A stretch of DNA of 64,000 nt from Candidatus Marithrix sp. Canyon 246 (GTDB lineage: Bacteria > Pseudomonadota > Gammaproteobacteria > Beggiatoales > Beggiatoaceae), in contig NZ_MCBX01000016.1 of NCBI RefSeq assembly GCF_001723685.1, positions 1-64,000 on the forward strand, read 5' to 3'. Numbering within the stretch: the first letter of the stretch is position 1; every line of letters begins with the position of its first letter. Shown one piece after another: positions 1 to 22,274 of this stretch. The notes under the pieces are model-generated. The model had not been told where the DNA came from. It saw nothing but the letters and a program-made list of their open reading frames with translations, and did not search any database. A program made the position numbers and the translations under genes.

Positions 1-3000
1 ACTGTTGCAGAACTAGTAGTTCTAATAGTTCCTTCTAATTTACCACCATTTACTGATGCTCCTCGTAATTCCGTATCTTTTAAGCTAACATCTTTAGGAA
101 GTTTAACAGTTTTATCAAGTATTACATGACTTAACTCAGCTTTAGCAGTTATTTTTACATTGATCAAGATAGCCGGTGCTTCTGGATTACCATTAATTTT
201 ACCTTCAATTTGTCCGCCTTCTATCTTAGTATCTTTTGCTAAAGTTACGTCTGTTAGAGTGCCTTCATTCTTGATTTCTCCTTCGAGAGTTCCGCCTTCA
301 TTTTTTATAACGCAGTTGATGTTTGAGGATAGAGTGCAACCTGTTGGTTCTGGTGTTGTTTGTTGGGTTGGTGTTGAAGATGGAAGTGGATTCACTTTAA
401 TATTAAAGGTTTGAGCTGCTGATGTCTCTATGTCATCACTTAATATTACTGTCACTACTGCGCTGCCAACAGCACTTGGTGTAAATGTCAAGTTACCTGA
501 AGCATCAATTGTAGGTTGTACAGAAAATAGACTTTCATTATCATTAGTGACTGTAAAGCTTAGCGTTTGTGATGATTCATTTGATGATCCTGCATCAATG
601 TTGGTTGCCCAAGCAGTAATGTTTTGTGCTGCACTTACAAAAACTGTTTGATCATCACCTTTAATAAATGAAGGTATATCATTAACAGCAGTAACATCAA
701 TAGTCATAGTAAAAGCAGCATCACTAAATGATGTACCATCATGCACCTTAAATTGGAAAGTGGCATAACTATTACCATTAGCGTTAGCTGCTGGGGTAAA
801 TGTCAATTTACTAATGTCGGCTACAACAATTTCTTGATCAACTGTGACATTAGCACCGTCAAGTTGTAAAGTTCCAACAGTTGGCAATTGGGTTATTTGG
901 ATTTGGTTTAAACTGTTGCCACTATCTATATCAGTAAATGCAAAATCGGCTTCTTTAAAAGGATAAGTTGCATCTTCATTTAGTGTAACTGTCTTATCAG
1001 CTGTTGTTGGTGCATCATTAACCGGATTAACAGTAATATTTATTGTATCATCATCAGTCAATGTACCATCATTTACTACAATCTGTACACTTGCACTACC
1101 ATTAAAATTACTTGTAGGTGTAAAAATCATACCTGCCAACCCAGTATTAATATCATTTTCAGTACCACTGAATTCCATGTTTACATCATCTGTACCATCA
1201 CCAATGTTGAATGTTAGATTTGTGGTAGAACTTAAAGTTAAAGTACCATTCGTTGCTGTTAAAGTTACTGTAACTGAACCAATATCTATATCACTGATTG
1301 AAATCAAATTTGAGTTAGTTGTGGAAAAACTAAGTGGCGTATCTTCATTAGTTGTTTGTGTATCTGATACAGTATTTGTTGGTGCATCATTAACAGCAGT
1401 AACATCAATAGTCATAGTAAAATCAGCATCACTAAATGATGTACCATCATGCACTTTAAATTGGAAACTGGCATAACTATTACCATTAGCGTTAGCTGCT
1501 GGGGTAAATATCAACTTACTAATATCAGCTACAACAATCTCTTGATCAACTGTGACATTAGCACCGTCAAGTTGTAAAGTTCCAACAGTTGGCAATTGGG
1601 TTATTTGGATTTGGTTTAAACTGTTGCCACTATCTACATCACTAAACTCAAAATCTGCTTCAGCAAAAGTATAAGTCGCATCTTCATTTAGTGTTACCGT
1701 CTTATCAGCCGCTGTCGGAGTATCACTAATAGCAGTAACAGTAATATTTATCGTATCATCATCAGTCAATGTACCATCATTTACTACAATCTGTACACTT
1801 GCACTACCATTAAAATTACTTGTAGGTGTAAAAATCATACCTGCCAACCCAGTATTAATATCATTTTCAGTACCACTGAATTCCATGTTTACATCATCTG
1901 TACCATCACCAATGTTGAATGTTAGATTTGTGGTAGAACTTAAAGTTAAAGTACCATTTGTTGCTGTTAAAGCTGCTGTAACTGAGTTACCAACAGCATC
2001 TTCAGCCTCTATGTCACTGATAGAAATAAGATTTGAATTAGCTGTTGAGAAGGTTAGTCTCGTATCTTCATCAATTGTTTGTGTATTTGGTACGTTATTA
2101 ACAGGGGCATCATTCACGGCTGTTACTGCAATGGTGAAGGTTTCTGTATCCGTCAATGTACCATCACTAACCGTGATTGTTACAGTTCCACTAGTACTCA
2201 CGCCTTCGCCGGGTGTCCAGTTTATCGCTCCGGTTGTGGCATTAATAGTCATGCCCGTGGGTTCTCCGCTGATTGTCCATGTAAGCATATCGTTATCTGC
2301 ATCAGTTGCAGTAGGGGTATAGGTGTACTCCGTATCTTCGGTGGCACTAGTGCCAGCCGTGGTATTGATGGCAGGAGCACTATTGGCAGCAATTACAGCA
2401 GTGCTATTAATACTGCTTTCAACCGCTGTACCACTGGAATTAGCATTGACTGGTGTGACTTCAAAGCTAATAAATTTATCAATGTCAGCATTGCTTAACA
2501 CATAGGTTTCACTGGTTGCACCTGAAATAGCGGCTTTATTTGTGCCACTCGCATCATCAGAATGATACCACTGAAAGCTGGTACCATTTTGGCTATCGCT
2601 TTCGGCATCTGCGTAAGTGTAACTGCCTGTTAAGGTTTCACCCTCTAGTAATGTGCCTGAAAACGTGACACTGCTGGCGGTTGGTGGAGTATCGGGGCAG
2701 GTTGAACCAAAGGTCCCAACAATTTCTGTGGTGCTGGTGCTGCCACATTGATTGACCACAGCACCACAAGCAGCGGCTGTAACATCTAAATTACTGGTAC
2801 AAATAAACAAATCCCTAGCATTAGCTGTACCGTCTTGTAAACCTGTTCCTATGACAACTGTATTGTTACTGAAGCTAACATCTTTCAATGTTGTTGTGCC
2901 GTTCATGGCAAAGATAGCACCGCCGCCGCCGAATCCGCCGCCGCCGCCGAATTCGCCGCCGCCATCGCCGCCTCCGTATCCGCCTCCGCCTTTACCTCCG

Positions 3001-4430
3001 CCTCCGCCTCCGAATCCGCCTCCGCTTCCTCCGAATCCTCCGTATCCGCCTCCGCCTCCTCCGAATCCTCCGTATCCGCCGCCGTCTCCGCCTCCGCCTC
3101 CGAAGCCGCCGTCTCCGCCGTCTCCGCCTCCGCCGCCGAAGCTACCAATACTCCCACCATAATTCCCATTCCCTCCATAAGCCCCATTCCCATTTGTACT
3201 GGAGGCAAATAACCCACCACCGCCTTTGCCGCCAGCATTACCAAACATTCCGCCGCCACCATGAGAAAAAGCATCTACATTGCCGCTTCCCCCCGTGGCA
3301 TTATTATCACTGAATATCACCATATCCACAGTAACCGTACCATTATAGATAAATAAAGCACCACCCAAACCAGCACCACCGCCGCCTAAATTACTATCAC
3401 CGCCTTTGGCTTTACCATTTATCAAGCTCAGATTTTGAATGGTGACTGTACCTGATTTAATAAACAAAGGGCGATAAGTATCCCCGCCACTGATACTGCG
3501 AGCTGTGCCATCATTTTGTAAGGTGACATCACTATTAATCAGGGTTTTCATCACCCCTGTAACAGTTACATCGGTTTGCACAGTAATGGTATCCGCACCT
3601 GCATTGTTATTGGCTTGTAAAATAGCCCAACTCAGCGTATTTGCCGTACCGCCGGTGCCATCATCAGACCCTACGGTTACAGGGTAATCAGTTGCATATG
3701 CAGGCATACTCTTGCCTAATGCCAATGTCATTGCCGTAGCTAATACACTATTAAATTTCGATTTTTGCGGTTTTTTGGTAGGGAGCAAATTTGTAACGGT
3801 GATATCATATCCTATCATTCGTTGAGACAATCGGGCTAAAGTCTTGCTTTGATGAAAATCCTTTGCCAACAAGCCAAAAGCAGCTAAATCAATAAAATTT
3901 TCGTCTTGTTTTGAATAAATATGACCAGAGCGAATCCCTTCTGCATTAAAGCCTAGACTCAATAAATTTCTCTGTGGCTGGAAATTATTCTGATAACTAT
4001 AAGCATCAATTTTGTTTAAATGGTATTGATTAAAACCAAGATCTAACAGCAATAAGGTAGCTTCAATGCCATAGCCTGCTTGACGATGATTAGCAAACAA
4101 ACCAATCAAATATTCAGCACGGCAATGCACAGGAGAATAATCGGCTAAGGCAAGCAAGCCAATGGGACCTTTGCGTTTATGGATAATTAGTATTTCTAAA
4201 TAACCACTTTGCTCAGGACTATGTTGCCATTGTTTTTCCAGATAGTTCTGCGTTTGTTCTAAGCTATTAAAATCCCCATTTAAGCGGAATAAACGCATAA
4301 ACTCGCTATCACCGAAAGCATTTTCATACAGTATATTTGCATCTGCTGGAATGGTTCGGCGTAACAGTATATTTTTACCCACCTTTAAAATTGGTGAATT
4401 ATCTATGTCATCATAATAAATTGTTTTCAT
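1..4430 (-). CDS. Giant repeat-rich secreted surface protein with N-terminal GNAT domain (3' end outside window)
   Basis: One open frame runs from ATG at 4430 to the window edge (about 1476 codons, no stop found when read at many points). Residues 1-200 form a RimJ/RimL-type GNAT acetyltransferase with the acetyl-CoA loop RQAGYG near 116-121. A Sec-like signal follows internally at about 219-246: a KKPQKSK basic start, a hydrophobic stretch and an AYA cleavage site. Next come a parallel beta-helix-like stretch, a glycine-rich block (about 380-500), an Ig-like domain (about 590-660), a putative-Ig domain, then cadherin-like repeats opening with VNDAP, and a beta-solenoid-like region (EGGQIEGKI type). 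The ATG overlaps the TGA of the upstream sulfotransferase (ATGA), suggesting coupled translation. Likely an adhesin or sheath protein. It may instead be two products, if translation restarts at the internal ATG (3818). Confidence 0.8.
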   Translation of the reverse strand, partial: MKTIYYDDIDNSPILKVGKNILLRRTIPADANILYENAFGDSEFMRLFRLNGDFNSLEQTQNYLEKQWQHSPEQSGYLEILIIHKRKGPIGLLALADYSPVHCRAEYLIGLFANHRQAGYGIEATLLLLDLGFNQYHLNKIDAYSYQNNFQPQRNLLSLGFNAEGIRSGHIYSKQDENFIDLAAFGLLAKDFHQSKTLARLSQRMIGYDITVTNLLPTKKPQKSKFNSVLATAMTLALGKSMPAYATDYPVTVGSDDGTGGTANTLSWAILQANNNAGADTITVQTDVTVTGVMKTLINSDVTLQNDGTARSISGGDTYRPLFIKSGTVTIQNLSLINGKAKGGDSNLGGGGAGLGGALFIYNGTVTVDMVIFSDNNATGGSGNVDAFSHGGGGMFGNAGGKGGGGLFASSTNGNGAYGGNGNYGGSIGSFGGGGGDGGDGGFGGGGGDGGGYGGFGGGGGGYGGFGGSGGGFGGGGGGKGGGGYGGGDGGGEFGGGGGFGGGGAIFAMNGTTTLKDVSFSNNTVVIGTGLQDGTANARDLFICTSNLDVTAAACGAVVNQCGSTSTTEIVGTFGSTCPDTPPTASSVTFSGTLLEGETLTGSYTYADAESDSQNGTSFQWYHSDDASGTNKAAISGATSETYVLSNADIDKFISFEVTPVNANSSGTAVESSINSTAVIAANSAPAINTTAGTSATEDTEYTYTPTATDADNDMLTWTISGEPTGMTINATTGAINWTPGEGVSTSGTVTITVSDGTLTDTETFTIAVTAVNDAPVNNVPNTQTIDEDTRLTFSTANSNLISISDIEAEDAVGNSVTAALTATNGTLTLSSTTNLTFNIGDGTDDVNMEFSGTENDINTGLAGMIFTPTSNFNGSASVQIVVNDGTLTDDDTINITVTAISDTPTAADKTVTLNEDATYTFAEADFEFSDVDSGNSLNQIQITQLPTVGTLQLDGANVTVDQEIVVADISKLIFTPAANANGNSYASFQFKVHDGTSFSDADFTMTIDVTAVNDAPTNTVSDTQTTNEDTPLSFSTTNSNLISISDIDIGSVTVTLTATNGTLTLSSTTNLTFNIGDGTDDVNMEFSGTENDINTGLAGMIFTPTSNFNGSASVQIVVNDGTLTDDDTINITVNPVNDAPTTADKTVTLNEDATYPFKEADFAFTDIDSGNSLNQIQITQLPTVGTLQLDGANVTVDQEIVVADISKLTFTPAANANGNSYATFQFKVHDGTSFSDAAFTMTIDVTAVNDIPSFIKGDDQTVFVSAAQNITAWATNIDAGSSNESSQTLSFTVTNDNESLFSVQPTIDASGNLTFTPSAVGSAVVTVILSDDIETSAAQTFNIKVNPLPSSTPTQQTTPEPTGCTLSSNINCVIKNEGGTLEGEIKNEGTLTDVTLAKDTKIEGGQIEGKINGNPEAPAILINVKITAKAELSHVILDKTVKLPKDVSLKDTELRGASVNGGKLEGTIRTTSSAT
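680..2095 (-). repeat. Two tandem 708-bp units inside the surface-protein gene
   Basis: Units at about 680-1387 and 1388-2095 are nearly identical at the DNA level. For example, the segment at 1177 recurs at 1885 and the segment at 680 recurs at 1388. Each unit encodes 236 residues, equal to two cadherin-like domains. The similarity points to a recent in-frame duplication. Confidence 0.85.
2910..3180 (-). repeat. Glycine-rich, GC-rich low-complexity segment
   Basis: About 80 codons are almost all GGN with interspersed Phe, Tyr, Asp and Lys, giving GGYGGFGGSGGG-type protein. Its GC content is far above the surrounding AT-rich DNA. It lies in frame within the surface-protein gene, in the beta-helix-like region. 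The proline-rich and alanine/glutamate-rich readings in other frames are by-products of the same repeat. Confidence 0.85.
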
Positions 4431-5263
4431 TGTCTAACTCTAGGGTAAAATAGTTGATAAAAATCCACAAACAGCCGTTGAATATCAGCTTCAATTCGTG
4501 CCGATATTTGATGACGTTGTGGTGGTGATAAACTCGTGCGAGTTTGATGTGAATATTTAAAACGGTAATAACTATCACTTTCATGGGCTTTAACAGGCAA
4601 TTTTTGCGGGTTAAAAGCTGCAGACGGCAAATCTAACCAGCGATAAATATCTTGCATAACTCGTTGCGGATCTTGCATAAGATCTTCAAACACAACATAA
4701 AATAAGCGTTTTTGCAGGGTTTCAGCTTCATCCTGTAAAGCTTCAATAGCTTTCATTGGACCACCAATTACCCCATCACTGGCAAATAATTTTTCAGCTC
4801 GGGCATAACGTGATAAATGTGCCAAATGATCAGGAAAGTCCAATAACAGTGTGTTTTGGTGTCGGGCTTCAATAGAGCCATAAATCTGGGCAGGCTCGCG
4901 CACACAAACCAGCATTCTAAAGTCAGGATTAAGCAAAGACACACTATCCAACTGGTTTAACCAGCCACGATTTTTATCCACTACCCACGGTTTATCAGTT
5001 TCAGCAAACCAACCATTAATAAAGCCCCGATAGGCATTTAATAAGCGTTGATAGCCTAAATTAAAATCACAATCAAGCTGAGATAATAAAAATTCATTAT
5101 CACTAAGATTATGACGCAATTGGTTTAAAGTCTGACATAAAGGTGACGAATGCCCAGTGCTGTATATTTGACTGTGTATATCCAATAACTGACACAATAA
5201 AGTTGAACCTGAACGGGGCAAACCTGTTACATATAAAATATTTTTATTAATACTGATATTCAT
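4427..5263 (-). CDS. PAPS-dependent sulfotransferase family protein
   Basis: The 278-residue product begins MNISINKN and carries the 5'-phosphosulfate-binding loop GLPRSGSTLLCQLLD near the N-terminus, the hallmark of Sulfotransfer_1/3 proteins, which move sulfate from PAPS to an acceptor. The acceptor cannot be read from sequence; a surface glycan or the neighbouring surface protein is an inference. The start is set at ATG 5263. An upstream in-frame TTG at 5320 would give 297 residues, but that TTG is the -35 box of a consensus promoter, so it is not the start. The stop overlaps the next gene's ATG. The divergent neighbour makes PAPS. Confidence 0.82.
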   Translation of the reverse strand: MNISINKNILYVTGLPRSGSTLLCQLLDIHSQIYSTGHSSPLCQTLNQLRHNLSDNEFLLSQLDCDFNLGYQRLLNAYRGFINGWFAETDKPWVVDKNRGWLNQLDSVSLLNPDFRMLVCVREPAQIYGSIEARHQNTLLLDFPDHLAHLSRYARAEKLFASDGVIGGPMKAIEALQDEAETLQKRLFYVVFEDLMQDPQRVMQDIYRWLDLPSAAFNPQKLPVKAHESDSYYRFKYSHQTRTSLSPPQRHQISARIEADIQRLFVDFYQLFYPRVRQ

Positions 5264-5291
5264 AAATTTAAAAAATAATTTTACAGTGGTT

Positions 5292-5320
5292 ATTATAATC
5301 AGATTATTATCAGATGTCAA
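5292..5320 (-). promoter_or_regulatory. Perfect-consensus sigma-70 promoter of the sulfotransferase/surface-protein operon
   Basis: Read on the minus strand: TTGACA (5320-5315), a 17-nt spacer, then TATAAT (5297-5292). Transcription would start near 5285, leaving about 22 nt before the ATG at 5263. Confidence 0.85.
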
Positions 5321-5392
5321 GCTATTGTTTTTTTTTGCAAAATCATATATATAAATATAAATACTTCAATATCTAGCCTTATGTTATAATTA

Positions 5393-6028
5393 ATGCAAAT
5401 GGCAACAAACATCTTTAAACATCAGTCTAATATTATACATCAAAAACCTCACCCAGCCTTAGTACTCTGGTTCACTGGCTTATCAGGTTCAGGCAAATCT
5501 ACCTTAGCTCATGCAGTAGAAGAAAAACTATATGAAATGCAATATCATACATTTGTACTTGATGGAGATAATATGCGTAATGGCTTATGTAGTGATTTAG
5601 GATTTTCTGATGAAGATAGAATCGAAAACATTCGTCGTACTACAGAAGTAGTTAAATTATTTTTTGATGCTGGATTAATTGTATTAACTGCTTTTATTTC
5701 ACCTTTTAGAAGTGATCGTAATAAAATAAGACAATTAATAGGAAATAACTTTATTGAAATTTATTGCGACACTCCACTTTCAACCTGTGAAACACGTGAT
5801 ATAAAAGGTTTATATAAGCTTGCAAGAGCAGGTAAAATTAAAGATTTTACAGGAATTTCATCTCCTTATGAAAAACCTGAAAACCCAGAAATAACCATAG
5901 ATACAGTTAATCACAGTATTGATGACTGTGTGAATCAAGTCATAGTAAACCTGACAACTAATTATTCTTGTTCTGTTCCGTCAGGGTTTGTAAATTTTAA
6001 CTGCAATACCCCTGAACCGAAAAAATAG
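5393..6028 (+). CDS. cysC: Adenylylsulfate (APS) kinase
   Basis: Phosphorylates adenosine 5'-phosphosulfate to PAPS, the sulfate donor of sulfotransferases. The 211-residue protein has the P-loop GLSGSGKST near residue 30, the DGDNMRNGL substrate motif, the NIRRTTEV segment and the [10 protein letters not shown] motif, all typical of CysC. The last 25 or so residues (rich in Asn, Thr and Pro) extend past the family's usual end and abut decayed DNA, so the tail may be altered. Starts at ATG 5393 or 5399. A TATAAT at 5385-5390 is so close that the message may be leaderless, but no good -35 was found. It sits divergently to the sulfotransferase. Confidence 0.92.
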
Positions 6029-6071
6029 GCGAACCAGAGTTACTAATTGGGCGAGAAAAGGAATTTAAACC

Positions 6072-6238
6072 GGCAAAACTAGCTTTGTACAACGAATTTT
6101 CAACCAATTATGGACATAAAATAAATTCTGAGACAAAAGTTATACCATTTTAATATTACCGGGCTTTTGCTTCACAGTATATTTCTTTTATTACTCAAAT
6201 TCCAAACTTGGTAAGTAGGTACGCAAAAGTTTATTAAC
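6072..6238 (+). repeat. 167-bp direct repeat, copy 1 (decayed P-loop NTPase fragment)
   Basis: Matches 7123-7289 with about five differences in 167 bases. In one frame both copies encode a Walker-A-like GKTSFVQRI followed by NQLW; three differences between copies fall at third codon positions in that frame, two of them synonymous. This suggests it was once coding. Stops interrupt every frame, so no gene is intact. Confidence 0.8.
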
Positions 6239-6432
6239 AAAAATACTTAATATTATGTAAGTATGTTAAAATATTTATACGTACCGACATAATAGATCAT
6301 TTATCTAGTAAATATTTAGTTTATATGACTTAGCTTCGCTGACTTCGTATCGTATCGTTACTTCGTTTAGTTTAGTTCTTAATTCGTTGTACTAATCTTC
6401 AATTAGTTTTAGCAACTTATTTATCCTTGAGT

Positions 6433-6453: not shown

Positions 6454-7003
6454 CTAATTATTCAATGTTTGCGCCGCTGATGTATCAATACCATCATTTA
6501 ATACTATTGAAACTACTGCACTACCTGTAGCATTTGTTGCTGATGTAAAACTCAAATTACCAGTAGCATCAATTGCAGGTTGGGCTGCAAATAGGCTATT
6601 ATTATCATTAGTTTCTATCGTTAAAAAGCTATTACCGTTAAAATCAGCAGTTGGATTAAAACTAATTCCTGCTAAAGCGGTGTTGATATTAATTAGAGTT
6701 CCAGTGAATACCATACTAACATCTATATCATAGATTGAAACCAGATTATTATTGTTTGTTGAGAAAACTAATTGGCTGTCTTCATTTGTAATTTGTGTGG
6801 TAGATCGTATTTTATTGATTGGTGTTTTATTTAATTGTTGATAACAAGAAAGGAATATTAGCAATAATATTATTATTTATAATTGTAATGTTATTAACAA
6901 CAGTTGGCGGATGATTTATAGGAAGGTTATTATTTGCAAAGGCAGTTTGTAAATGCCATAGCAGCGTAAGGAACATTATTAATTGATAAAAATATTTCGA
7001 CAT
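6454..7003 (-). pseudogene. Frameshifted secreted protein related to the giant surface protein
   Basis: ATG at 7003 opens a frame with a good signal peptide (MSKYFYQLIMFLTLL, then TAFA cleavage) that reaches a stop after about 58 codons. The next segment lies one frame over (6864-6454) and carries a cadherin-like repeat (ITNEDSQLVFS, NLVSIYDID) plus a module resembling NDNESLF-QPTIDASGNL of the giant surface protein. A single frameshift near 6865-6890 would join them. The encoded protein would be about 180 residues. It is probably a decayed partial paralog of the 1-4430 gene. It lies between the two 167-bp repeats. Confidence 0.7.
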
Positions 7004-7122
7004 ATTATCTTGCTCTGGTCATAGTTTATGAAATAAGCGTCATAAATATCATTATAAATCATATCAATTAATTTAAACAATAACTATTTAAATCCAGAGT
7101 AATAATAGCCAGAAGGAAAAGC

Positions 7123-7289
7123 GGCAAAACCAGCTTTGTACAACGCATTTTGAACCAATTATGGACAGAAAATAAATTCTGAGACAAAAGTTATACCATT
7201 TTAATATTACCGGGCTTTTGCTTCACAGTATATTTCTTTTATTACTCAAACTCCAAACTTGGTAAGTAGGTACGCAAAAGTTTATTAAC
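7123..7289 (+). repeat. 167-bp direct repeat, copy 2 (decayed P-loop NTPase fragment)
   Basis: Second copy of the 6072-6238 repeat. Upstream bases add RRKS before GKTSFVQRI, completing a plausible Walker A motif, but a TGA follows about 20 codons later. Confidence 0.8.
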
Positions 7290-7508
7290 CTAAAATTGGT
7301 TTAAATAAAGTTGAAGTTTATAAAACTCTTTTTCCTGACGCTATTGTTTTAGCTGGTTATTTATCTTTGGGTGATTTTTGTTTGAGACATGGAATTGGGG
7401 TGGATGATAAAATTGAAAAATTACCAATTTAGATACTTATCTAAACAGCGTAATAATTGGTTACAATCTCAGAATCGACGCTTTTATCCTACTAGTTTGT
7501 TTATGTAA
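7289..7508 (+). pseudogene. Fragment of an unidentified protein with a frameshift
   Basis: One frame reads KIGLNKVEVYKTLFPDAIV and on to about 47 residues before TAG at 7430. A second frame continues from 7425 with QFRYLSKQRNNWL to TAA at 7506. The composition looks coding and the two parts overlap at the likely frameshift. No start codon is available. I do not recognise the family; it may be the C-terminus of the P-loop protein left in the adjacent repeat. Confidence 0.45.
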
Positions 7509-8673: not shown

Positions 8674-9042
8674 TTATGCACCAAAACGCTTATTTAAATA
8701 AGTAATAATATCAGCAGATTCATACATCCAAATCACCTTGCCTTTTTCCTCAATCCGTAAACAAGGAACCTTAATTGCACCACCTTCAGCCAACAATTCC
8801 TGCCTATATTTAGGATCATTTTGAGCATCACGCAACTCAATATTAATATTCAGAGCATGTATTGCGCGACGAGTGCGAATACAAAAAGGGCAAGCATAAA
8901 ATTGATATAAACTTAAACCCTCAGCCTCTTTATCAACTAACTTTTGTGCTGCATCTGTTCTAATTATTTTTTTAGGTTTAGTAATAAAATTAATAAAAAC
9001 AATAAGTCTGCCTAAACCTTCACGAAGAGCTTTTAAAATCAT
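8674..9042 (-). CDS. Glutaredoxin-like protein
   Basis: 122 residues; the first 40 form a hydrophobic/basic leader (LIVFINFI), possibly a membrane anchor. A glutaredoxin fold follows with the dithiol motif ACPFC, the KVPCL cis-proline segment and a C-terminal ESADIITYL helix (glutathione-binding TVxD region replaced by MYESAD). Predicted to reduce disulfides with glutathione. It lies between dut and the glyoxalase in a tight minus-strand run. Confidence 0.85.
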   Translation of the reverse strand: MILKALREGLGRLIVFINFITKPKKIIRTDAAQKLVDKEAEGLSLYQFYACPFCIRTRRAIHALNINIELRDAQNDPKYRQELLAEGGAIKVPCLRIEEKGKVIWMYESADIITYLNKRFGA

Positions 9043-9045
9043 AAA

Positions 9046-9489
9046 TTATTTTATCCCAGTCGAACCAAAGCCATCACGCCCCTGATCATTCAATTCTTCT
9101 ACCCATTCCAATTGCACCTGCACAATTGGAACAAACACCATTTGACAAATACGATCACCCGGATTAATTACAAAAGCAGTATCACTACGATTCCAAACCG
9201 CAATCTTAACTTCCTTTCTATAATCAGAATCAATCAAACCCACCAAATTAGCTAACACAATACCATGCTTAACACCCAAACCAGAGCGCGGTAATAACAT
9301 CGCACTTAAATTCGGATCATTAATATCAATCGCAATACCACTACCAATCAACTGAGTTTCACCCGCTTGTATTTCTAATGGCTTCTCAATACAAGCACGT
9401 AAATCAATGCCAGCAGCACCATTAGTAGCATAACTAGGTATAAAATCAGCAATTAACGGATTAACTATTTTTGCTTCTATTTTCTTCAT
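9046..9489 (-). CDS. dut: Deoxyuridine 5'-triphosphate nucleotidohydrolase (dUTPase)
   Basis: Hydrolyses dUTP to dUMP, keeping uracil out of DNA and feeding dTMP synthesis. The 147-residue, trimeric-type protein shows the family motifs in order: AAGIDLRA (motif 1), LLPRSGLG (motif 2), GLIDSDYRKEV (motif 3), RICQMVF (motif 4) and the C-terminal GRDGFGSTG arm (motif 5). Start MKKIEAK fits the family. It overlaps the 3' end of the preceding small gene by about 29 bases. Confidence 0.97.
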   Translation of the reverse strand: MKKIEAKIVNPLIADFIPSYATNGAAGIDLRACIEKPLEIQAGETQLIGSGIAIDINDPNLSAMLLPRSGLGVKHGIVLANLVGLIDSDYRKEVKIAVWNRSDTAFVINPGDRICQMVFVPIVQVQLEWVEELNDQGRDGFGSTGIK

Positions 9490-9673
9490 AATGAGCTTTA
9501 CAGCAATAATAATGCTGATCTAAATACAAGGCTTCCTGTTTAGGAAAAAAGATTCCACAATGATCACAACTTACCATTAAACCAATTTTAGTAACATTCT
9601 TTCGAGACTTATAACGATTTATAAATCCCCATATTACAAATATCAACAATAACAATAATAGTAAACGTATCAT
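9461..9673 (-). CDS. PP0621-family small membrane protein with zinc-ribbon-like cysteines
   Basis: 70 residues: one N-terminal transmembrane helix (MIRLLLLLLLIFVIWGF), then a small domain with CDHC, FFPKQEAL and a CC-x2-H ending, a candidate metal site. It resembles the uncharacterised PP0621 family of proteobacteria. Its ATG overlaps the nusB stop (ATGA), so it is probably translated with nusB. Function unknown. Confidence 0.75.
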   Translation of the reverse strand: MIRLLLLLLLIFVIWGFINRYKSRKNVTKIGLMVSCDHCGIFFPKQEALYLDQHYYCCKAHYEENRSKNS

Positions 9674-10083
9674 TTATTATTAGCAAGCTTATCTAAAATA
9701 CTATTAACATATTTATGACTTTTCTCTGCCCCAAACCTTTTTGCTAACTCAACCGACTCATTAATAACAACTTTAAAAGGTACATCAGGGCAATATTTCA
9801 ATTCATAACTACCAATTCTTAAAATCACCAACTCAATCAAATCCAATTGACTAATATCGCGATCTAAAAAACCGACAAAGCTAGAATCTATATTCTTTAA
9901 CTCTTTAGGAATCTCATGCAACAGCTTCTTAAAATAAGGCACATCAACCTTAGCCATATCTTCTTCTTCAAAAAACTGAGACTCAATTAATTGAATATTT
10001 TGCTTAGTGATTTGCCATTGATATAAGGCTTGTAAAGTACGTTGACGTGCATTAGTACGAGCTGAAAAAAATTTTTTAGCCAT
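9670..10083 (-). CDS. nusB: Transcription antitermination factor NusB
   Basis: Binds boxA RNA with NusE (S10) and promotes antitermination in rRNA operons. The 137-residue helical protein has the typical N-terminal RQRTLQALYQWQ, the central LDLIELVILRIGSYEL and the conserved KVVINESVELAKRFG-KSHKYVNSILD. Usually nusB follows ribH. Here only a short ribH remnant precedes it and its ATG comes one base after the remnant's stop, so it may be translationally coupled to that remnant. Confidence 0.97.
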   Translation of the reverse strand: MAKKFFSARTNARQRTLQALYQWQITKQNIQLIESQFFEEEDMAKVDVPYFKKLLHEIPKELKNIDSSFVGFLDRDISQLDLIELVILRIGSYELKYCPDVPFKVVINESVELAKRFGAEKSHKYVNSILDKLANNK

Positions 10084-10084
10084 A

Positions 10085-10183
10085 TTAAAATAAACTCTCA
10101 GTAATAAAACTATTAAAACGTCCTACCACTAAAGCATACGGAGCATCTCCGCCTGCAAAATCACCTTCAATAATTGTACTCAT
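10085..10183 (-). pseudogene. ribH: Remnant of 6,7-dimethyl-8-ribityllumazine synthase (first 32 codons)
   Basis: ATG at 10183 overlaps the TGA of the ribB-like gene (ATGA). It encodes [12 protein letters not shown], then [17 protein letters not shown] and a stop. The [10 protein letters not shown] segment is the well-known start of lumazine synthase, a protein of about 155 residues. Everything after residue 31 is missing and nusB follows immediately, so an internal deletion of about 370 bases is inferred. The product cannot be an active enzyme. It may persist as a leader coupling ribB and nusB translation. Confidence 0.85.
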
Positions 10184-11301
10184 TTATGTATCTCATTATT
10201 AATATAATCAACTACTTCCATGCCAAAGCCAGATAAAGCGTGCATTTTCTTTGGCGCACTTAATACCCGCATCTTACGAACACCTAAATCAGATAAAATC
10301 TGCGCCCCTAAACCATGATTTCTTAAATCATGTGTAGGAGGAAGTGCAGGTAAATCCTCACCATGATCTTTGCGTGAACAATTATCAATTCTATGAATCA
10401 TAGTATCAACATCCTCATCCTGATGTAAAATAACTACCACACCACTACCTTCATCTGCTATCCGTTTCAAAGCCCCACGCAAAGGCCATCCACACTCAGG
10501 ACGCGAACTAAAAGTTAAATCACACAAAGTATTACGAGTATGTACTCGCACTAAAATTGGTTCCTTAGAATTTAACTCACCTTTCACCAAAGCAAAATGC
10601 AATATATTCTCAATATTATCCTTATAAGCAACCAACTTAAATTCACCAAACTCCGTTGGTAAATTACAACTACTCATCCGTTCCAGAGTTTTCTCATGCG
10701 CCATCCGAAACCGAATTAAATCCGCAATAGTTCCAATTTTTATATTATGCTGCTTTGCAAACTCTTCCAAATCTGGACGACGCGCCATCGTACCATCTTC
10801 ATTCAAAATCTCCACAATCACAGCCGCTGGCTCTAATCCAGCTAAACGCGCCAAATCACATCCAGCTTCAGTATGTCCAGCGCGTCTTAACACCCCACCA
10901 GCCTGAGCCATTAACGGAAAAATATGCCCCGGCTGTACCAAATCAGAAGGTTTAGCATCCCCACTGACAGCCGCACGAATAGTAACCGCACGATCAGCCG
11001 CTGAAATACCAGTAGTTACACCCTTAGCAGCCTCAATTGAAACCGTAAAATTAGTAGAATGTACCGCATTATTATCATTTACCATCAAAGGCAATTGCAA
11101 CTGCCGGCAACGCTCAGATGTCAAAGTCAAACAAATTAAACCACGTCCATAACGTGCCATAAAATTAACATCTTCAGCCCGTACCTGACTAGCAGCCATA
11201 ATCAAATCGCCTTCATTTTCTCGATCTTCATCATCCATCAGGATGACCATTCTACCTTGTCGAATATCAGCGATAATTTCTTCTATATTATTTAAAGCCA
11301 T
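10180..11301 (-). CDS. ribB: 3,4-dihydroxy-2-butanone-4-phosphate synthase with degenerate GTP-cyclohydrolase-II-like domain
   Basis: Residues 1-205 are a full RibB domain with [11 protein letters not shown] (metal and substrate acidic loop), the [16 protein letters not shown] motif and GTMAR; it converts ribulose 5-phosphate to the four-carbon riboflavin precursor. The C-terminal half has the GTP cyclohydrolase II fold ([29 protein letters not shown]) but lacks the GD-x8-CDC zinc motif, so it fits the gammaproteobacterial RibBX type without cyclohydrolase activity. A dedicated ribA is expected elsewhere. ATG at 11301 is preferred over an upstream TTG (11307); it overlaps the channel gene's end. 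Confidence 0.92.
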
Positions 11302-12994
11302 AAGCAAATTTTTTTTCTAACCAGCGTCCAATATAAGTACGTGGCGGCATCTCTCCAGTTACAAGATAAGTCAACACTAAGTGATCATACCAACACCATT
11401 TCATCCATGTTGCAGCTCCTTTTTTACTACACCATAATATCTGATCATTTGGTGCTAAAACTTCATCATTTTTAGGTAATAGTATTGTTTTATCACCACG
11501 TCGCAATAATAATGCTACTACCGCTAACCTAGAATCACGATCTCTAGGATCCTTTCTTAAATATCCTAAATTAATCACTTGTCCCTTCTCAATCGCCTGC
11601 CACAAAACTGGACTTTCTTTAGTAGTGATTGACATTTGCCAAGTTATTGGTATAGTATTACCTAATGTATTCTGTAAATAGTTAATAAGTTTTAACACTA
11701 ATTTATAATCATATGATTTAGTTAATAAATCCAAAAAGTCTTCTAATAAAGGATTAGTTAATAAAACTCGTATATAGTTAGCAATAATGTTACTAGCTTG
11801 CATCACAATATCCGCCCCTGCGGCATCAAAAATAATTTGATTAGTCGCATTATTTTGACGAATAACAATAAATAATGATGGATTTAATTTGCGAGCTAGC
11901 ATAATAATTGAAAGATTAGTGACATCATCATTGGTTCCAACAACAATACCAACTGCATCTTCAATTTGTGCTTGTTGTAAAGTATCAACCTCAGTACCAC
12001 GACCAACTATACATTCACCCCTTGGATAACCTGTTTCATCTGGATTAGCCTCAATCACAATTATATGAATATTTTTTTCTGTTTTAAACTCTTCATATAC
12101 AGCTTTACCAAAGCGTCCATAACTACAAACTATCCATAAACCTTGTTTGGGAGGTTTTAAAGTCTTGCAGTCTGAAAAACATTTATGTCTAGTCAGACAT
12201 TCACGTAATGTTAATAGCATTGAAGCATGTAAAGCATAATGTAATTTCTCTGCAAAAATCTCAAATGGATCAATTACATAATCACTACCAAATGCCAACA
12301 TATTATTAGCTATTTTCTCCGAATCAGCACGTCCAATTATTGTTAATTTAGGTTTCAGAAGCTTACTACTAATTGCAATATGTAAATTCGCTATATTATC
12401 ATCAGTAATAGCAACGACACCAGCACAGTTTTCATTATTTAATGCAACTTGCAAATTCTCTGGTTTACTTGCATCAGCGCAAAGTGCAGGAATATGAACA
12501 GAATAATTTTCTAAAATTAAATGATTGAGACGATCTGGATTGGATTCTATTACAATAGTACCTAAAGCACGTTCTGTTAAGGCACTAACTAATGCAGTTC
12601 CGGTATCTCCATAGCCACAGATAATATAAAAAGGTTCCTTAATCTTTTTTACAGCATTCTCAAAACTATTTTCAGTTAATACATTTTGTAATGCATCATC
12701 TTGCAACAGTTTGATTAAGCCAGTTATAGCATAAAACCATGATATAACTGTCATATATAAGGAAATAGTTACCCACATCCGCTGTAAATCAGTAAATTCA
12801 TGAGGTATTTCGCCAAAACCAATAGTTGTACCCATATAAGATACAAAATAAAAAGCATGGAAAAAGCTCATACGTTCATTATTAATATCAGGAATTAAAG
12901 TCATGCCTACTCCTGCTATAGAATAGACAGTCAATAATACCAATAATGGACGACGCATCCTGCGCATCACCAAAAAGAAAATCATGCTATTCAT
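11288..12994 (-). CDS. Potassium channel with two RCK (TrkA-N) domains
   Basis: 568 residues. The N-terminus (about 1-95) holds two transmembrane helices around a pore with the selectivity-filter-like TTIGFGE. Two Rossmann RCK domains follow: one with CGYGDTGTALV (about residue 120), one with CSYGRFGKAVYEEF (about 290). A C-terminal RCK_C-like domain includes LLLRRGDKTILLP. Such channels pass K+ under control of nucleotides or ions. The start overlaps the upstream DUF6394 stop (TAATG), the usual partner of this channel type in gammaproteobacteria, suggesting a functional unit. Confidence 0.88.
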   Translation of the reverse strand: MNSMIFFLVMRRMRRPLLVLLTVYSIAGVGMTLIPDINNERMSFFHAFYFVSYMGTTIGFGEIPHEFTDLQRMWVTISLYMTVISWFYAITGLIKLLQDDALQNVLTENSFENAVKKIKEPFYIICGYGDTGTALVSALTERALGTIVIESNPDRLNHLILENYSVHIPALCADASKPENLQVALNNENCAGVVAITDDNIANLHIAISSKLLKPKLTIIGRADSEKIANNMLAFGSDYVIDPFEIFAEKLHYALHASMLLTLRECLTRHKCFSDCKTLKPPKQGLWIVCSYGRFGKAVYEEFKTEKNIHIIVIEANPDETGYPRGECIVGRGTEVDTLQQAQIEDAVGIVVGTNDDVTNLSIIMLARKLNPSLFIVIRQNNATNQIIFDAAGADIVMQASNIIANYIRVLLTNPLLEDFLDLLTKSYDYKLVLKLINYLQNTLGNTIPITWQMSITTKESPVLWQAIEKGQVINLGYLRKDPRDRDSRLAVVALLLRRGDKTILLPKNDEVLAPNDQILWCSKKGAATWMKWCWYDHLVLTYLVTGEMPPRTYIGRWLEKKFAYGFK

Positions 12995-13374
12995 TAACGT
13001 CTTAACATTGCAGTATCAATTACAATTAACAATACCGAAATAACATTAGCTAACATAGCACCACCTGCAAGTGAAACTATACTTGGCATCAATTCTACTA
13101 AATTATTAGACCCAACATGAGTTGCAGAATACCAAACCATCGCAGCAACAATCAATTGTAAATTAGCTACCAAACTAGTAGCTAACAACAAAGCTCCAAC
13201 TTGAGTACGATCTCCAAATTTTAAGATAGTAGCAAATAGGTTCACAACAATAGCCATTGCTAATTCATAGACATTATGATGTTTTACATCAGCCATATCA
13301 CCTATAAAAAAGCCAAAATTTAGTGTCAATGCCAATACTATAAAAAATCCGAACGCAATTTTTTCCAGATTCAT
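12994..13374 (-). CDS. DUF6394 family membrane protein
   Basis: 126 residues with about four predicted transmembrane helices (KIAFGFFIVLALTLNFGFF; ELAMAIVVNLFATIL; LLLATSLVANLQLIVAAM; MLANVISVLLIVIDTAML). The sequence fits the uncharacterised DUF6394 family, commonly next to RCK potassium channels. It overlaps rpoC's stop and the channel gene's start by single TAATG junctions, so rpoC, this gene and the channel may share a transcript. Possibly a channel subunit or regulator (inference from context). Confidence 0.7.
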   Translation of the reverse strand: MNLEKIAFGFFIVLALTLNFGFFIGDMADVKHHNVYELAMAIVVNLFATILKFGDRTQVGALLLATSLVANLQLIVAAMVWYSATHVGSNNLVELMPSIVSLAGGAMLANVISVLLIVIDTAMLRR

Positions 13375-16300
13375 TAATCAACTACTTTAGAAACATGACT
13401 TATAGGTTTTAATTCTTTAGGATAAGGATTTTCTCTTAACCTTCTATCTTCATGATATGCCATACCAGTACCTGCCGGTATTAAACGCCCTACGATCACA
13501 TTTTCTTTTAAACCACGTAAATCATCACAACGTCCACTTACAGAAGCTTCAGTTAATACCCTTGTTGTTTCTTGGAAAGAAGCCGCTGATATAAATGAAT
13601 CAGTTGCCAAAGAAGCCTTAGTAATACCTAGTAATTGAGGTTCATAAGTGGCAGGTTGCTTATCTTCTGCAATTACCCGTTCATTTTCTTCCAATAATTT
13701 TGAACGTTCAATTAATTCATTATGCAATAAGCCTGTATCGCCCGGATCAATGATCATCACTTTACGTAGCATTTGACGTACAATCACTTCAATATGCTTA
13801 TCATTAATCTTAACCCCTTGTAGGCGATAAACCTCTTGCACCTCATTGACAATATAATTTGCTAAAGCATCAACACCATTAACCCTTAAAATATCATGTG
13901 AATTTGACGCACCATCAACTATTTCTTCACCCTTCTCAACTTGTTGACCCTCAAACACATTAATATGTCGCCATTTTGGAATTTGGATTTCTATTGGATC
14001 CCTATCATCAGAAGGCGTAATAACTATTCGCTGCTTAGTTTTAGTATCTTTACCAAAAGTAACAGTACCAGAACATTCAGCTAGAATTGAAGGTTCTTTT
14101 GGTGTACGTGCCTCAAATAAATCAGCAACCCGTGGTAAACCACCAGTAATATCCCGTGTTTTAGAAGACTCTTGCGATAAACGAGCAATAATATCACCTA
14201 CCTTCACCTCTGCACCATCTTCAACATTAATAATAGCCATAGGAGGTAAATAATAATTAGCTGGAATATCAGTACCAACTAGAGTTAAATCTCGATCATG
14301 CTCATCCACTAATTTAACTATTGGACGCAAATCTTTTGCATGAGATGGTCTTAACTTAGGATCAATAACCACAATATTACTTAAACCAGTAATATCATCA
14401 ACATCCCTACTAACCGTAACACCTTCTACCACATCAACAAATTTGACAATTCCAGCTACTTCCGTAATAACAGGAATAGTATGTGGATCCCAAGTTGCAA
14501 TTGTTTGCCCAGCTTCAACCTTATCTCCATCATGAACGCTTAACATCGCACCATAAGGCACCTTATATCGTTCACGTTCTCTACCAAATTCATCTAATAA
14601 AGTTATTTCACCAGAACGTGACACCGCAATCAATTGCTGCTTATCATGTTGTAAAAGCAATTTCAGATTAGAAAAGCTTAAAGTACCAGTAGATTTAACC
14701 TCAATATGACTAACTGCGGCAGAACCAGAAGCAGCACCACCAATATGGAAAGTCCGCATAGTTAATTGAGTACCCGGTTCACCAATAGACTGAGCCGCTA
14801 TTACACCTACAGCTTCACCACGATTAACCAAATGCCCTCTACCTAAATCACGTCCATAACATTTAGCACAAACACCATAATGAGATTCACAAGTAATAGC
14901 AGAACGAACTAGAATTCTATCAACACCTTCTTGTTCTAAAAACTCCACCCAATCCTCATCAATTAAAGTACCAGCTGTTATAACAGCTTCTTCTTGTTCA
15001 GGCTTCATCACATCAACAGCTACTACACGTCCTAATACTCGATCTCCCAAAGGTTCAACTACTTCACCACCTTCAATCAAAGGATGCATTTCTAAACCAT
15101 GAGTGGTCTCACAATCATATTGCTTAATCACCATATCTTGAGCCACATCAACTAAACGCCGCGTTAGATAACCAGAGTTAGCAGTTTTTAAAGCAGTATC
15201 AGCTAGACCCTTCCTAGCACCATGAGTAGAAATAAAGTATTGCAATACATTTAAACCCTCACGGAAATTAGCAGTAATCGGCGTTTCAATAATAGAACCA
15301 TCCGGTTTCGCCATTAAACCACGCATACCAGCTAATTGACGAATTTGAGCAGCAGAACCACGCGCCCCAGAATCTGCCATCATATAAATTGAGTTAAAAG
15401 AAGCTTGCTGTTCCTGCTCACCTTTTTTATTAGTAACTGTTTCTACACCCAATTGATCCATCATAGCCTTAGCTAATTTTTCATTGGTATGTGACCAAAT
15501 ATCAACTACTTTATTATATCGTTCACCTTGAGTAATTAAACCAGAACCATATTGATCTTCAATCTCTTTAACTTCTTTTTCTGCTTCTTCAATAATTTGA
15601 TGTTTATTGTTAGGAATCCTCATATCCTCAATACCAATAGAAATACCAGCGCGAGTTGCAAAAGAAAAACCAGTGTACATCAATTTATCAGCAAAAATAA
15701 CAGTATCTTTAAGACCTAAACTACGATAAGCACTATTAATTAAATTAGAAATATTTTTCTTGGTTAAATCTCGATTTAACAATTTAAAAGGTAAACCAGC
15801 CGGCAAAATCTTAAATAATAAAGCCCGTCCAACTGTAGTATCGAATCGCTTAATATTAGTTTCAGTAACAGTGGTTTGATTCTGAGGTGTTTCAGGTTTA
15901 GTTATAACAGTTTCTTCTAATCTAACTGTAATCATTGCATTTAATGAAACTAACTTATTTTCATAAGCACGTCGTACTTCATCAACATTACTAAATATCA
16001 TACCTTCACCAAGAGCATTGATAGATGATCTGGTCATGAAGTATAAACCTAGCACCACATCTTGAGAAGGTACAATAATAGGATCACCATTAGCTGGTGA
16101 TAAAATATTATTAGTTGACATCATTAAAGCACGAGCTTCTAATTGCGCCTCTATAGATAAAGGAATATGCACAGCCATTTGATCACCATCAAAGTCAGCA
16201 TTAAAAGCAGTACAAACCAATGGATGTAATTGGATTGCTTTACCTTCAATTAAAACTGGTTCAAATGCTTGTATGCCTAATCTATGTAATGTCGGAGCAC

Positions 16301-17573
16301 GATTCAACATTACAGGATGTTCACGAATTACTTCTTCAAGCACATCCCAGACTTCTCCACCTTCTCGCTCAACTAATTTTTTAGCCGCTTTAATAGTAGT
16401 TGCAAAACCCTTCAACTGTAACTTTCCAAACACAAAGGATTTAAACAACTCTAAAGCCATTTTTTTAGGTAAACCACATTGCTGTAATCTTAAAGTTGGT
16501 CCAACTACGATTACAGAACGTCCAGAATAATCAACCCGCTTACCTAACAAGTTTTGTCGAAAACGCCCCTGTTTACCCTTAATCATATCAGCTAATGATT
16601 TTAAAGGTAACTTATTAGTACCAGTAATAGCCCTGCCTCTACGACCATTATCCAATAAAGCATCTACTGACTCTTGCAACATACGCTTTTCATTGCGCAC
16701 AATAATATCAGGAGCATTCAACTCCAATAAACGATTTAATCTATTATTACGATTGATTACACGTCTATAAAGATCATTTAAATCAGAAGTTGCAAAACGT
16801 CCACCATCTAAAGGCACCAAAGGACGTAATTCAGGCGGTAATACAGGTAACACCTTAAAAACCATCCATTCTGGTCTATTACCAGAATGTAAAAAAGATT
16901 CTATTAACTTCAGACGCTTAGTATATTTTTTAATCTTAGTCTCTGAACGCGAAGTACTTATTTCCTCGCGAAGACGATTAACCTCACTCGCTAAATCAAT
17001 TGAAGCTAATAACTCACCTATTGCCTCAGCTCCCATTTTAGCTTCAAACTCATCGCCATATTCTTCAATAGTTTCCAAATAAGCATCTTCAGTCAGTAAT
17101 TGACCTAGATCTAAAGGAGTTAAACCCGGATTAATAACTACATAAGCTTCAAAGTACAGAATACGTTCAATATCCCGCAAGGTCATATCCAGCATTAAAC
17201 CCATTCGAGAAGGCAAAGATTTTAAAAACCAAATATGAGCCACTGGACTTGCAAGTTCTATATGACCCATACGCTCACGGCGTACTTTAGACTGTGTTAC
17301 TTCAACCCCACATTTCTCACACACAACCCCCCGATGTTTCAGACGCTTATATTTACCACATAAACACTCATAATCTTTTACTGGTCCAAAGATTTTGGCG
17401 CAAAACAGACCATCACGTTCAGGTTTAAAAGTACGATAATTAATCGTTTCCGGCTTTTTAACCTCACCATGAGACCATGAACGAATTTTTTCTGAAGAAG
17501 CTAAACCGATACAAATTCTGTCGAAGTCTTCTATATGACCCTGATTATTTAATAACTTGATTATATTGCGCAT
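13374..17573 (-). CDS. rpoC: DNA-directed RNA polymerase subunit beta'
   Basis: Catalytic subunit of RNA polymerase, 1399 residues, near the usual 1407 of gammaproteobacteria. Visible landmarks are the N-terminal zinc site ([14 protein letters not shown]-x2-CGVE near residues 70-90), the Mg-binding [12 protein letters not shown] (about 460), the bridge-helix region [19 protein letters not shown], the second zinc site with [13 protein letters not shown], and the trigger-loop region [19 protein letters not shown]. No intein or split was seen. It starts two bases after rpoB. Confidence 0.99.
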
Positions 17574-17575
17574 AA

Positions 17576-20500: not shown

Positions 20501-21685
20501 TTCGGCTGCTTCTGGAGTCGGAGGTTCACCCGGACGCATCATCCGGTAAATTTCTACATAAGCTTCTAATTGAGTAGAAGTAGTATCAATAGCTAAGGTA
20601 TCAGAAATATATGGACCCCTATCGAACTCATTAGTATATAAAATATCAAAACCATCAATCTGATTTGACATTAAGTTCTTTAGATTTTCTTCAGTCAATT
20701 CCTCATTAGCAGCAGCTATTTTTTCACCAGTGACAGGATCAATGACTTCATGAGCTAAGATTTTGCCTAATAAGAACGAATTTAAATTTCCATCATCATA
20801 TTCATAGGGAATTGGTACACTAGTAATACCAGCAGATTCTAACTTCTTTAAATGTCTAGCATTTATACGTCTTCCTGACTCAACAATGATCTCACCATCA
20901 GGTCCTTTCATATCAAAGTTAGCCACTTCACCACGTAAATGCTCGAAATTTAATACCCAATAAAAATCAGAACCAATGCGTTTAATTTTATGAGTATCAA
21001 AAAACAAAGCTAAGATTTCTTCATTAGAAATCCCTAAAGAACGTAATAATATTGTTGCTGGTAATTTACGTTTTCTATCTATCCTAACAAACAGTTTATC
21101 TTTATGATCAAATTCTAAATCTAACCATGATCCGCGATAAGGTATTATTCTAGCAGTGAATAAGTTTTTCCCAGAACTATGCGTTTTACCTTTATCATGA
21201 TCAAAAAAGACCCCGGGTGATCTATGTAATTGTGATACAATCACTCTTTCTGTGCCATTAACAACAAATGTTCCATTTTTGGTTATTAATGGAATTTCAC
21301 CCATATAAATTTCTTGTTCTTTTATATCTTTAACAGCTTTATTTTTACTGTCTTTATCATATACAACAAGACGTACTTTAACCCTTAGTGAAGCCGCATA
21401 ATTCATACCCCGCTGCTGACATTCGTTAACATCAAATTTTAAATTTTCTAAACGATAACTAACATATTCAATTGCAATATTGCCAGAATAACTTACAATT
21501 GGAAAAACAGATTTGAAAGCTGCATGTAAGCCAATATCTAAACGTTTATTAGCTTTGATATCCGTTTGTAAAAAATTTTTATAAGAATCTATTTGGATAG
21601 CTAGCAAATAAGGTACATCTAAAATGCTAATACTTTTTCCAAAATTGTTGCGGAGGCGTTTTTTCTCAGTGAAAGAATAGGTCAT
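17576..21685 (-). CDS. rpoB: DNA-directed RNA polymerase subunit beta
   Basis: 1369 residues, slightly longer than the 1342 of E. coli. Start [18 protein letters not shown]. The rifampicin-region sequence [23 protein letters not shown] is wild-type-like (Ser, Gln, Asp, His and Arg at the usual contact sites). The C-terminal [29 protein letters not shown] segment is present. Cotranscribed with rpoC, and separated from rplL by about 195 bases that include a strong hairpin. Confidence 0.99.
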
Positions 21686-21840
21686 ATCTGGAACTATTTA
21701 GAAGATGGGTACGCAGCTCAGAAGTTGCGTATATATGTTAGATTATTTACTTTAAAGTAAAAACTAATAGTAAAATCAATTCAAGTTGTATATAATATAA
21801 AATGTGTAGATTTGTTTTTATTGTTTAGTACGATGATTAA

Positions 21841-21875
21841 ATTAGGAATAGTGAATGTTATTCACTATTCCTAAT
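21841..21875 (-). terminator. rplL-rpoB intergenic hairpin (attenuator or processing site)
   Basis: A perfect 16-bp stem (arms 21841-21856 and 21860-21875, core TAGGAATAGTGAAT) with a 3-nt loop, just after the rplL stop. Downstream on the transcribed strand only a weak T-run is present, so partial termination or RNase III cleavage, as in E. coli rplL-rpoB, is more likely than full termination. Confidence 0.8.
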
Positions 21876-21879
21876 ACAA

Positions 21880-22260: not shown

Positions 22261-22274
22261 AATTAATAATTCCT

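Follow-up and report, generated by a model that had tools for sequence, protein, structure and literature searches.

A sulfotransferase gene beside a giant surface-protein gene in Candidatus Marithrix suggests protein sulfation before export

Genes at the contig end

The window analyzed here, 64,000 nucleotides of Candidatus Marithrix sp. Canyon 246 (contig NZ_MCBX01000016.1, positions 1 to 64,000), carries close to its start a gene for a sulfotransferase (ST). On inspection of its neighborhood for RaxA and RaxB, this gene was found to be directly flanked by cysC and by an open reading frame (ORF) that joins a GNAT domain to a large surface protein, inside which the contig stops (Table 1). Window position 1 is contig position 1, and the GNAT-surface ORF hence leaves the contig. 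The cysC gene diverges from the ST gene across a gap of 129 bases, and the ST stop codon (TGA, 4429-4427) shares 4 bp with the GNAT-surface start codon (ATG, 4430-4428) as ATGA. All ORFs in this study are mechanical ones, delimited without a gene finder. That of the ST begins at TTG 5320 and is probably over-long; because a promoter-like site, a match to the consensus rather than a mapped promoter, occupies 5320-5292 on the minus strand, ATG 5263 is the likely start.

Table 1. Features of the sulfotransferase locus, in window coordinates
Feature	Position	Strand	Evidence or remark
cysC, adenylylsulfate kinase	5393-6028	+	PF01583 1.3e-65; sole genome copy found
Sigma-70 promoter-like TTGACA-17-TATAAT, 12/12, upstream of ST	5292-5320	-	consensus match only
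ST, 278 aa from ATG 5263	4427-5263	-	PF13469 1.5e-19
ATGA overlap of ST stop and GNAT-surface start	4427-4430	-	sequence; possible translational coupling
GNAT-surface protein ORF, truncated at the contig end (1476 aa or more)	3-4430	-	mechanical ORF and Pfam
GNAT domain, residues 1-212, acetyl-CoA motif R-Q-A-G-Y-G intact	3795-4430	-	PF13302 6.9e-14
Signal-peptide-like hydrophobic stretch ending AYA, residues about 224-246	3693-3761	-	by eye, from aligning the four fused loci
Strand-rich, glycine-rich surface module, residues 247-575	2706-3692	-	homology module A4
Ig/cadherin-like (tandem-95) repeats, residues about 586-1243	702-2675	-	PF17803, PF17963, PF17892; NF012211

The sequence-only reading had described cysC and the ST as divergent, with the ST stop overlapping the start of the GNAT-surface gene. 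Pfam and TIGR matches, together with the sequence itself, confirm this, and the gene arrangement as first described is real. The span then assigned to the locus, 4427-6028, does hold the ST and cysC; the GNAT-surface gene falls outside it.

The ST matches Sulfotransfer_3 (PF13469) with 71.6 bits against a gathering score of 27, and its AlphaFold2 model has a pLDDT of 93.5. The nearest solved folds are TPST1 and TPST2 (Z 19.8 and 19.7), and ranks 1-7 are all taken by TPSTs (Z 19.3-19.8, 243-251 residues aligned, root mean square deviation 3.5-3.8), followed by the curacin ST domain (Z 18.0), heparan 3-OST (16.2), and SULTs (about 12-14). Residues R17, T21, K97, R122, and S130 are present in 80/80 ST sequences, that is, the window ST and 79 of the 80 loci of the wider set described below (L061, cut by a contig end, was left out; the ST tree uses the same rows). 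They include the residues of the 5'-phosphosulfate-binding (R17, T21) and 3'-phosphate-binding (R122, S130) motifs, assigned by alignment and recall, of an enzyme using 3'-phosphoadenosine 5'-phosphosulfate (PAPS). Where the alignment puts the catalytic Glu of TPSTs (E99 in TPST2 numbering), the window ST has H38; His occurs here in 67/80 sequences, M, Q, N, Y, or L in the other 13, and Glu in none. For this reason we do not class the ST as a TPST, although it has the PAPS motifs and, in its model, the TPST fold.

The partner ORF runs from the GNAT domain through the signal-peptide-like stretch and the glycine-rich region to the cadherin/tandem-95 repeats (NF012211, 118.1 bits versus a cutoff of 90). 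Acetyltransf_3 matches at residues 21-161 (53.2 bits versus a gathering score of 25.4), and the domain has SpeG-like matches both by sequence and by fold, with SpeG-type GNATs as the top Foldseek matches. In an AlphaFold2 model of the first 575 residues, the GNAT part is predicted partly with good confidence and the linker at about 145-245 poorly; a helix at 227-238 in the signal-peptide-like stretch has low confidence, whereas strands are well predicted around 250-390 and the glycine-rich part is less sure. The same fusion was found in four loci of three genomes (the Marithrix genome itself, G000; G003; and G027, twice; G and L numbers are our handles for genomes and loci). The three other loci show 54-55% identity to the window, with the frame kept through the junction of GNAT and signal peptide. 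An internal start after the GNAT may instead be the true start of the surface protein; against this, the three remaining fused loci have Leu in place of the window Met, and the reading frame is conserved across the junction. Judged by this comparison, the surface ORF is a true fusion.

Three cyanobacterial loci (L036, L037, and L054) encode the GNAT as a protein of its own, 232-235 aa long, whose gene directly follows the ST and is itself followed by a surface gene. It aligns with the fused domain over its whole length, so that what are separate genes in one lineage appear as a single gene in another. The acetyl-CoA motif, which we take to have the form R/Q-x-x-G-x-G/A, is intact in the window (RQAGYG), and its glycine is kept in 3/7 ST-linked GNATs (window, L019, and L037).

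Linkage of sulfotransferase and surface genes

The sequence-only reading had proposed that a lack of linkage in relatives would speak against a dedicated system. We searched 57 genomes and found a full-length ST at nine places in seven of them, while two more hold a 38-residue ST fragment (G035) and a distant 29% match (G040). A homologue of the glycine-rich surface gene stands no more than 2 kb from eight of the nine full-length genes, and the linkage is thus present in relatives. The adjoining surface gene lacks the GNAT in G009 and G017, has its start cut off on G002 contig C399, and is reached across a sulfatase gene on G002 contig C864. Conversely, a search with the surface module (A4) yielded nine genes at E<1e-30, of which eight lie beside an ST and the ninth is on G017 contig C135. 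Such strong A4 genes occur in 6/7 ST-bearing genomes versus 0/50 others (Fisher 1.9e-7, not corrected for phylogeny); this threshold, like the distance limits of 2-2.5 kb, was chosen by us. Weaker A4 matches (1e-12 to 1e-24) are found in the ST-less G014, G022, G032, and G033, and also in G009. At L022, the gene that separates a divergent ST from a glycine-rich surface gene encodes a sulfatase (2958-4391; PF00884 7.2e-49, SGSH_C).

A wider set was obtained from one scan of genome contigs and comprises the best 80 of 163 ST relatives; seven of its loci (L025, L026, L027, L030, L034, L039, and L056) are contigs of G009, G017, G031, G002, and G027 and hence enter both counts. A surface-type gene, by composition criteria of our own or by homology, lies within 2.5 kb of the ST in 54/80 loci from at least four phyla. 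These partners comprise 22 of the window kind (the A4 profile identified 20, clustering alone L061 and L071), 24 of an FHA/GLUG cluster, 5 of two other surface clusters, and 3 recognized by composition only, the last (L070, L085, and L100) resting on low-complexity ORFs. On recheck, L071 (a 167-aa ORF) and L104 (only a 563-aa, TpsB-sized ORF) are doubtful, which would lower the count to 52/80. The FHA/GLUG cluster was built by BLAST linking and includes TpsB transporters; a member of surface composition lies within 2.5 kb in 21/24 of its loci, and L073 (N-masked) and L102 have FHA-like sequence just below the composition line. Partners include an ESPR, TPS, Glug, and YDG protein (L068), a TpsB (POTRA_2, ShlB) beside the ST (L077), a YadA head, stalk, and anchor (L057), and RTX (L037) and Calx-beta (L025) proteins, and their domains indicate type I, Va, Vb, and Vc export.

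As a positional control, using composition only, a surface ORF was found within 2 kb of the ST in 19/27 full-flank loci versus 10/54 positions 6.5 kb off. In the ST tree, the STs linked to window-kind partners (22, including the window) and those linked to FHA partners (24) each fall on one side of a branch with 100/99 support; 34 of the 80 rows belong to neither group. A class sample of 369 genomes, with at most six candidates scored per genome, held an ST at E<=1e-20 in three, our own included. All three non-window STs in this sample, divergent copies from two genomes, lie beside surface genes: a 1792-aa TPS protein, a pair of DUF4347/cadherin and RTX ORFs, and, 129 bp downstream, an autotransporter of 2195 aa with DUF4347. 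Given that the frame across the GNAT/signal-peptide junction is conserved and that the ST/surface linkage recurs, the locus exceeds what chance would place together.

Other neighbors of the wider set were surveyed by Pfam scans of 133 of 166 listed ORFs, the list omitting ORFs outside 150-650 aa, those rich in Gly, Ser, Thr, or Asn, those containing X, and those already labeled. The commonest families were the TpsB ones (ShlB, POTRA_2) and TPR_16, with 5 members each. The phage-tail-collar domain (PF07484) is matched by 3/133. Small proteins with this domain lie upstream of the ST in two genomes, at L025 (8024-9992) and L170 (7263-7922), the tested regions being L025 8024-8605 and L170.

The GNAT family itself is found in 25/57 relatives at E<=1e-15, in 48 places, of which we fetched and inspected 18. 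In 8/18 regions, a family of secreted proteins of 260-340 aa, with no Pfam match in the three members scanned, is encoded within 3.1 kb of the GNAT (L125 7054-12991, L127 8372-10000, L133 7081-8710, L134 7100-8687, L140 8021-9483, and likewise L128, L130, and L132); its profile was built from six of the inspected places. A second type of secreted protein adjoins the GNAT in L126 and L135. GNAT-DUF4915 (PF16261) fusions of 570 and 584 aa occur at L136 (8179-9933) and L138 (654-2366), the two on which Pfam was run, and ORFs of similar length at L137 and L142.

Elsewhere in the window, a 177-nt direct repeat (95% identity; 6067-6243 and 7118-7294) flanks a cadherin-like remnant ORF (6454-6864, minus strand) whose Pfam matches are below gathering score. 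A plasmid search with window positions 9000-24000, as well as Rfam and tRNA scans, returned nothing bearing on the ST/surface locus.

Probable sulfation before export and its alternatives

The occurrence of ST relatives beside giant surface proteins in several phyla suggests sulfation of surface proteins before export. For the window, we think it probable that the ST is a cytoplasmic, PAPS-dependent enzyme of the protein-modifying type, dedicated to the co-encoded surface protein, which it would sulfate before export in the manner of RaxST. ATP sulfurylase and CysC, whose genes are both observed, would activate sulfate to PAPS. The ST, with its stop codon overlapping the next start, would be co-translated with the surface protein and would modify residues of the preprotein while these are still in the cytoplasm, as RaxST does with RaxX; the likeliest acceptors would be tyrosines in or near the glycine-rich module. 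Positioned ahead of the signal sequence, the GNAT would therefore remain cytoplasmic, where its target would be the polypeptide of which it is part, unless it serves as a docking or holding domain, and a signal-peptidase site would separate it from the exported part. Outside the cell, the giant surface protein would carry negative charge and serve in adhesion or in building a sheath. The part of this reading that pairs the ST with the surface protein is well supported by the genome comparison.

The supply of PAPS is a different matter. The cysC product is a clear adenylylsulfate kinase (APS_kinase, PF01583; TIGR00455 1.8e-73, 246.1 bits versus a cutoff of 138.7), and cysC occurs in 31/36 family genomes. 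The Marithrix genome has one cysC, one Sulfotransfer_3 gene, and an ATP sulfurylase gene, and no match to the PAPS reductase CysH was found in it or in any of the seven ST-bearing genomes. Its PF01507 matches were considered as CysH and rejected, as they look by eye like a DndC-type sulfurtransferase and TilS; the best of them, DndC-like L143 (contig C14, 16978-17538), would by eye be a DNA phosphorothioation sulfurtransferase. A single cysC without CysH suits a PAPS pool that is used by the ST. The sequence-only reading had further counted cysC as an integral member of the locus, and this did not hold: among the seven genomes with a full-length ST, cysC adjoins the ST in G000 only, lies 9 kb away in G003, and is on another contig in four, so that we dropped cysC as a conserved family partner. 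In the wider set, 12/80 loci have cysC, or an ORF containing it, no more than 2.5 kb from the ST, and all 12 belong to the FHA side of the ST tree. As far as the gene neighborhoods indicate, cysC is an incidental neighbor in the family, though one seen repeatedly among FHA-side loci. G001, a genome of the same genus in which no ST was found, has cysC following a giant FG-GAP/cadherin protein on the same strand (L172 1-4622).

Regarding the acceptor, Tyr makes up 160/4196 residues in the glycine-rich segments of 21 ST-linked proteins and 19/1310 in those of nine unlinked homologues. The difference gives p 0.006 in a per-protein test (Phe control, p 0.18) from which two unlinked proteins without such a segment had been dropped, with samples that are small and related and unlinked homologues that are mostly more distant. 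Tyrosine as the acceptor is a lead rather than a result, to which this composition lends weak support.

Several observations weigh against the proposal of a dedicated, RaxST-like enzyme. Two ST-linked proteins, L052 and L054, are nearly devoid of Tyr in their glycine-rich stretch, and the sole unlinked close homologue, L173, has Tyr like many linked ones. G017 carries a full-length ST and no cysC match. Conversely, 19/36 family genomes (G000-G035) have cysC with neither CysH nor a full-length ST (one of them, G035, carries the ST fragment), and PAPS must be used otherwise there; because of these genomes and G017, cysC cannot be called dedicated, and the idea of a dedicated PAPS supply is weakened. 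In the fold ranking, the curacin and heparan enzymes trail the TPSTs by little, and, as the catalytic Glu is absent, the TPST mechanism is not simply transferable to the ST. In G031, the ST has no adjoining surface gene. Finally, a partner within 2.5 kb is lacking at 26/80 wider loci. The flank falls short of this distance in 15 of them and reaches it in 11, two of the latter (L062 and L064) having a clustered surface gene at 3.5 kb. The motif glycine of the GNAT is replaced by Trp (as in RQAWYG) or Ser in 4/7 ST-linked copies, and its acetylating activity is putative: it may acetylate, or it may not.

The last point bears on the alternative that the GNAT part is a degenerate, non-acetylating domain retained in order to anchor, time, or chaperone the preprotein in the cytoplasm. 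Acetyl-CoA is absent outside the cell, so the domain could not work there, and its place ahead of the signal sequence, like the glycine losses, fits such a role. The motif is, however, intact in the window, L019, and L037, and by eye most of the separate relatives that we aligned keep it (L126 and L133 do not); on balance, degeneration is quite possible but somewhat doubtful. A different target for the ST, namely, a cell-surface glycan, be it an exopolysaccharide or a glycan attached to the surface protein, is unlikely. Polysaccharide sulfotransferases do share the fold (heparan 3-OST; NDST, Z 15.5), the sulfatase at L022 has an SGSH_C domain and sits between ST and surface gene, and the GNAT shows a weak match, below cutoff, to the amino-sugar acetyltransferase PseH as well as a fold match to the sugar GNAT FdhC. 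Yet TPSTs top the fold ranking, no glycosyltransferase is among the 25 families listed of 181 for the 133 neighbor ORFs, and the recurring partner is a protein gene rather than a glycan cluster.

It would also be conceivable that ST and surface genes merely reside together in variable islands and that the ST acts on something unrelated, such as a small metabolite. Many bacterial sulfotransferases work on natural products, the ST is sparse (3/369 genomes of the class sample) and scattered over phyla, and the 26 partnerless loci would be expected. We regard this explanation as improbable, given that in many loci the two genes directly adjoin, overlapping or a short gap apart, that partner type tracks the ST tree, and that the genes co-occur both in the family (6/7 versus 0/50) and in the class sample (3/3).

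Beyond the window, the dedicated pairing of ST and surface protein might reflect a general system, in which one family of STs with the TPST fold sulfates giant surface proteins in the cytoplasm irrespective of the export route, with a GNAT modifier joining in some; we hold this only tentatively, at a little less than an even chance. With the same reserve, it might extend over Pseudomonadota, Cyanobacteriota, Chloroflexota, Thermodesulfobacteriota, and other phyla, through type I, Va, Vb, and Vc routes, whose domains are seen, and presumably Sec. Equally tentative is the notion that, in giant sulfur bacteria and some cyanobacteria, the GNAT modifier became the cytoplasmic N-terminal domain of its own substrate. 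If true, sulfation would be a recurrent modification of bacterial surface proteins across phyla, with many ready substrate-enzyme pairs to test, some of them in cultured species such as Thiothrix eikelboomii ATCC 49788 (L045), whose ST gene adjoins that of a 913-aa surface protein. It would also bear on the charge of sheaths and mats in giant sulfur bacteria and cyanobacteria, and the GNAT-signal peptide fusion raises the question of how a folded cytoplasmic enzyme domain can stand ahead of an export signal.

Comparison with known systems

The bacterial case of protein sulfation in the literature that we consulted is RaxX of Xanthomonas (PMC6637879, PMC9372746). Its sulfotransferase, RaxST, is described as a cytoplasmic, TPST-type enzyme that sulfates RaxX before type I export, with PAPS provided by core genes, and homologues of about 40% identity are mentioned in Proteobacteria and Cyanobacteria in diverse contexts (PMC6637879). 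A review refers to an unpublished observation that bacterial TPST genes often adjoin genes for extracytoplasmic proteins and export (PMC9372746), and the idea of linkage is therefore not new. In the part of the review concerned, the remark comes without data, whereas partner classes, the GNAT fusion, and co-occurrence are documented here. Among open-license papers, judged by titles and the beginnings of abstracts, we recognized no work that deals with an ST acting on glycine-rich or two-partner-secretion surface proteins; nor did we find the giant surface partners, their range of export routes, their co-occurrence with the ST, or the GNAT fusion described there.

The window ST resembles metazoan TPST1 and TPST2 in fold, in profile similarity (1.9e-7), and in its PAPS motifs. 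It differs from them in the predicted absence of an N-terminal anchor, its model beginning at the first strand of the fold, and in the residue at the catalytic Glu position. The N-terminal domain of its partner is like SpeG-type GNATs in sequence and fold but, unlike these, precedes a signal sequence and a surface protein within one polypeptide. With raxX-raxSTAB, to which we liken the window locus by description, it shares a TPST-type enzyme encoded beside the gene of its exported (in the window, putative) substrate, as that system is outlined in PMC6637879. RaxX, however, is a peptide of 60 residues exported by a type I system, whereas the partner in the window is a giant surface protein.

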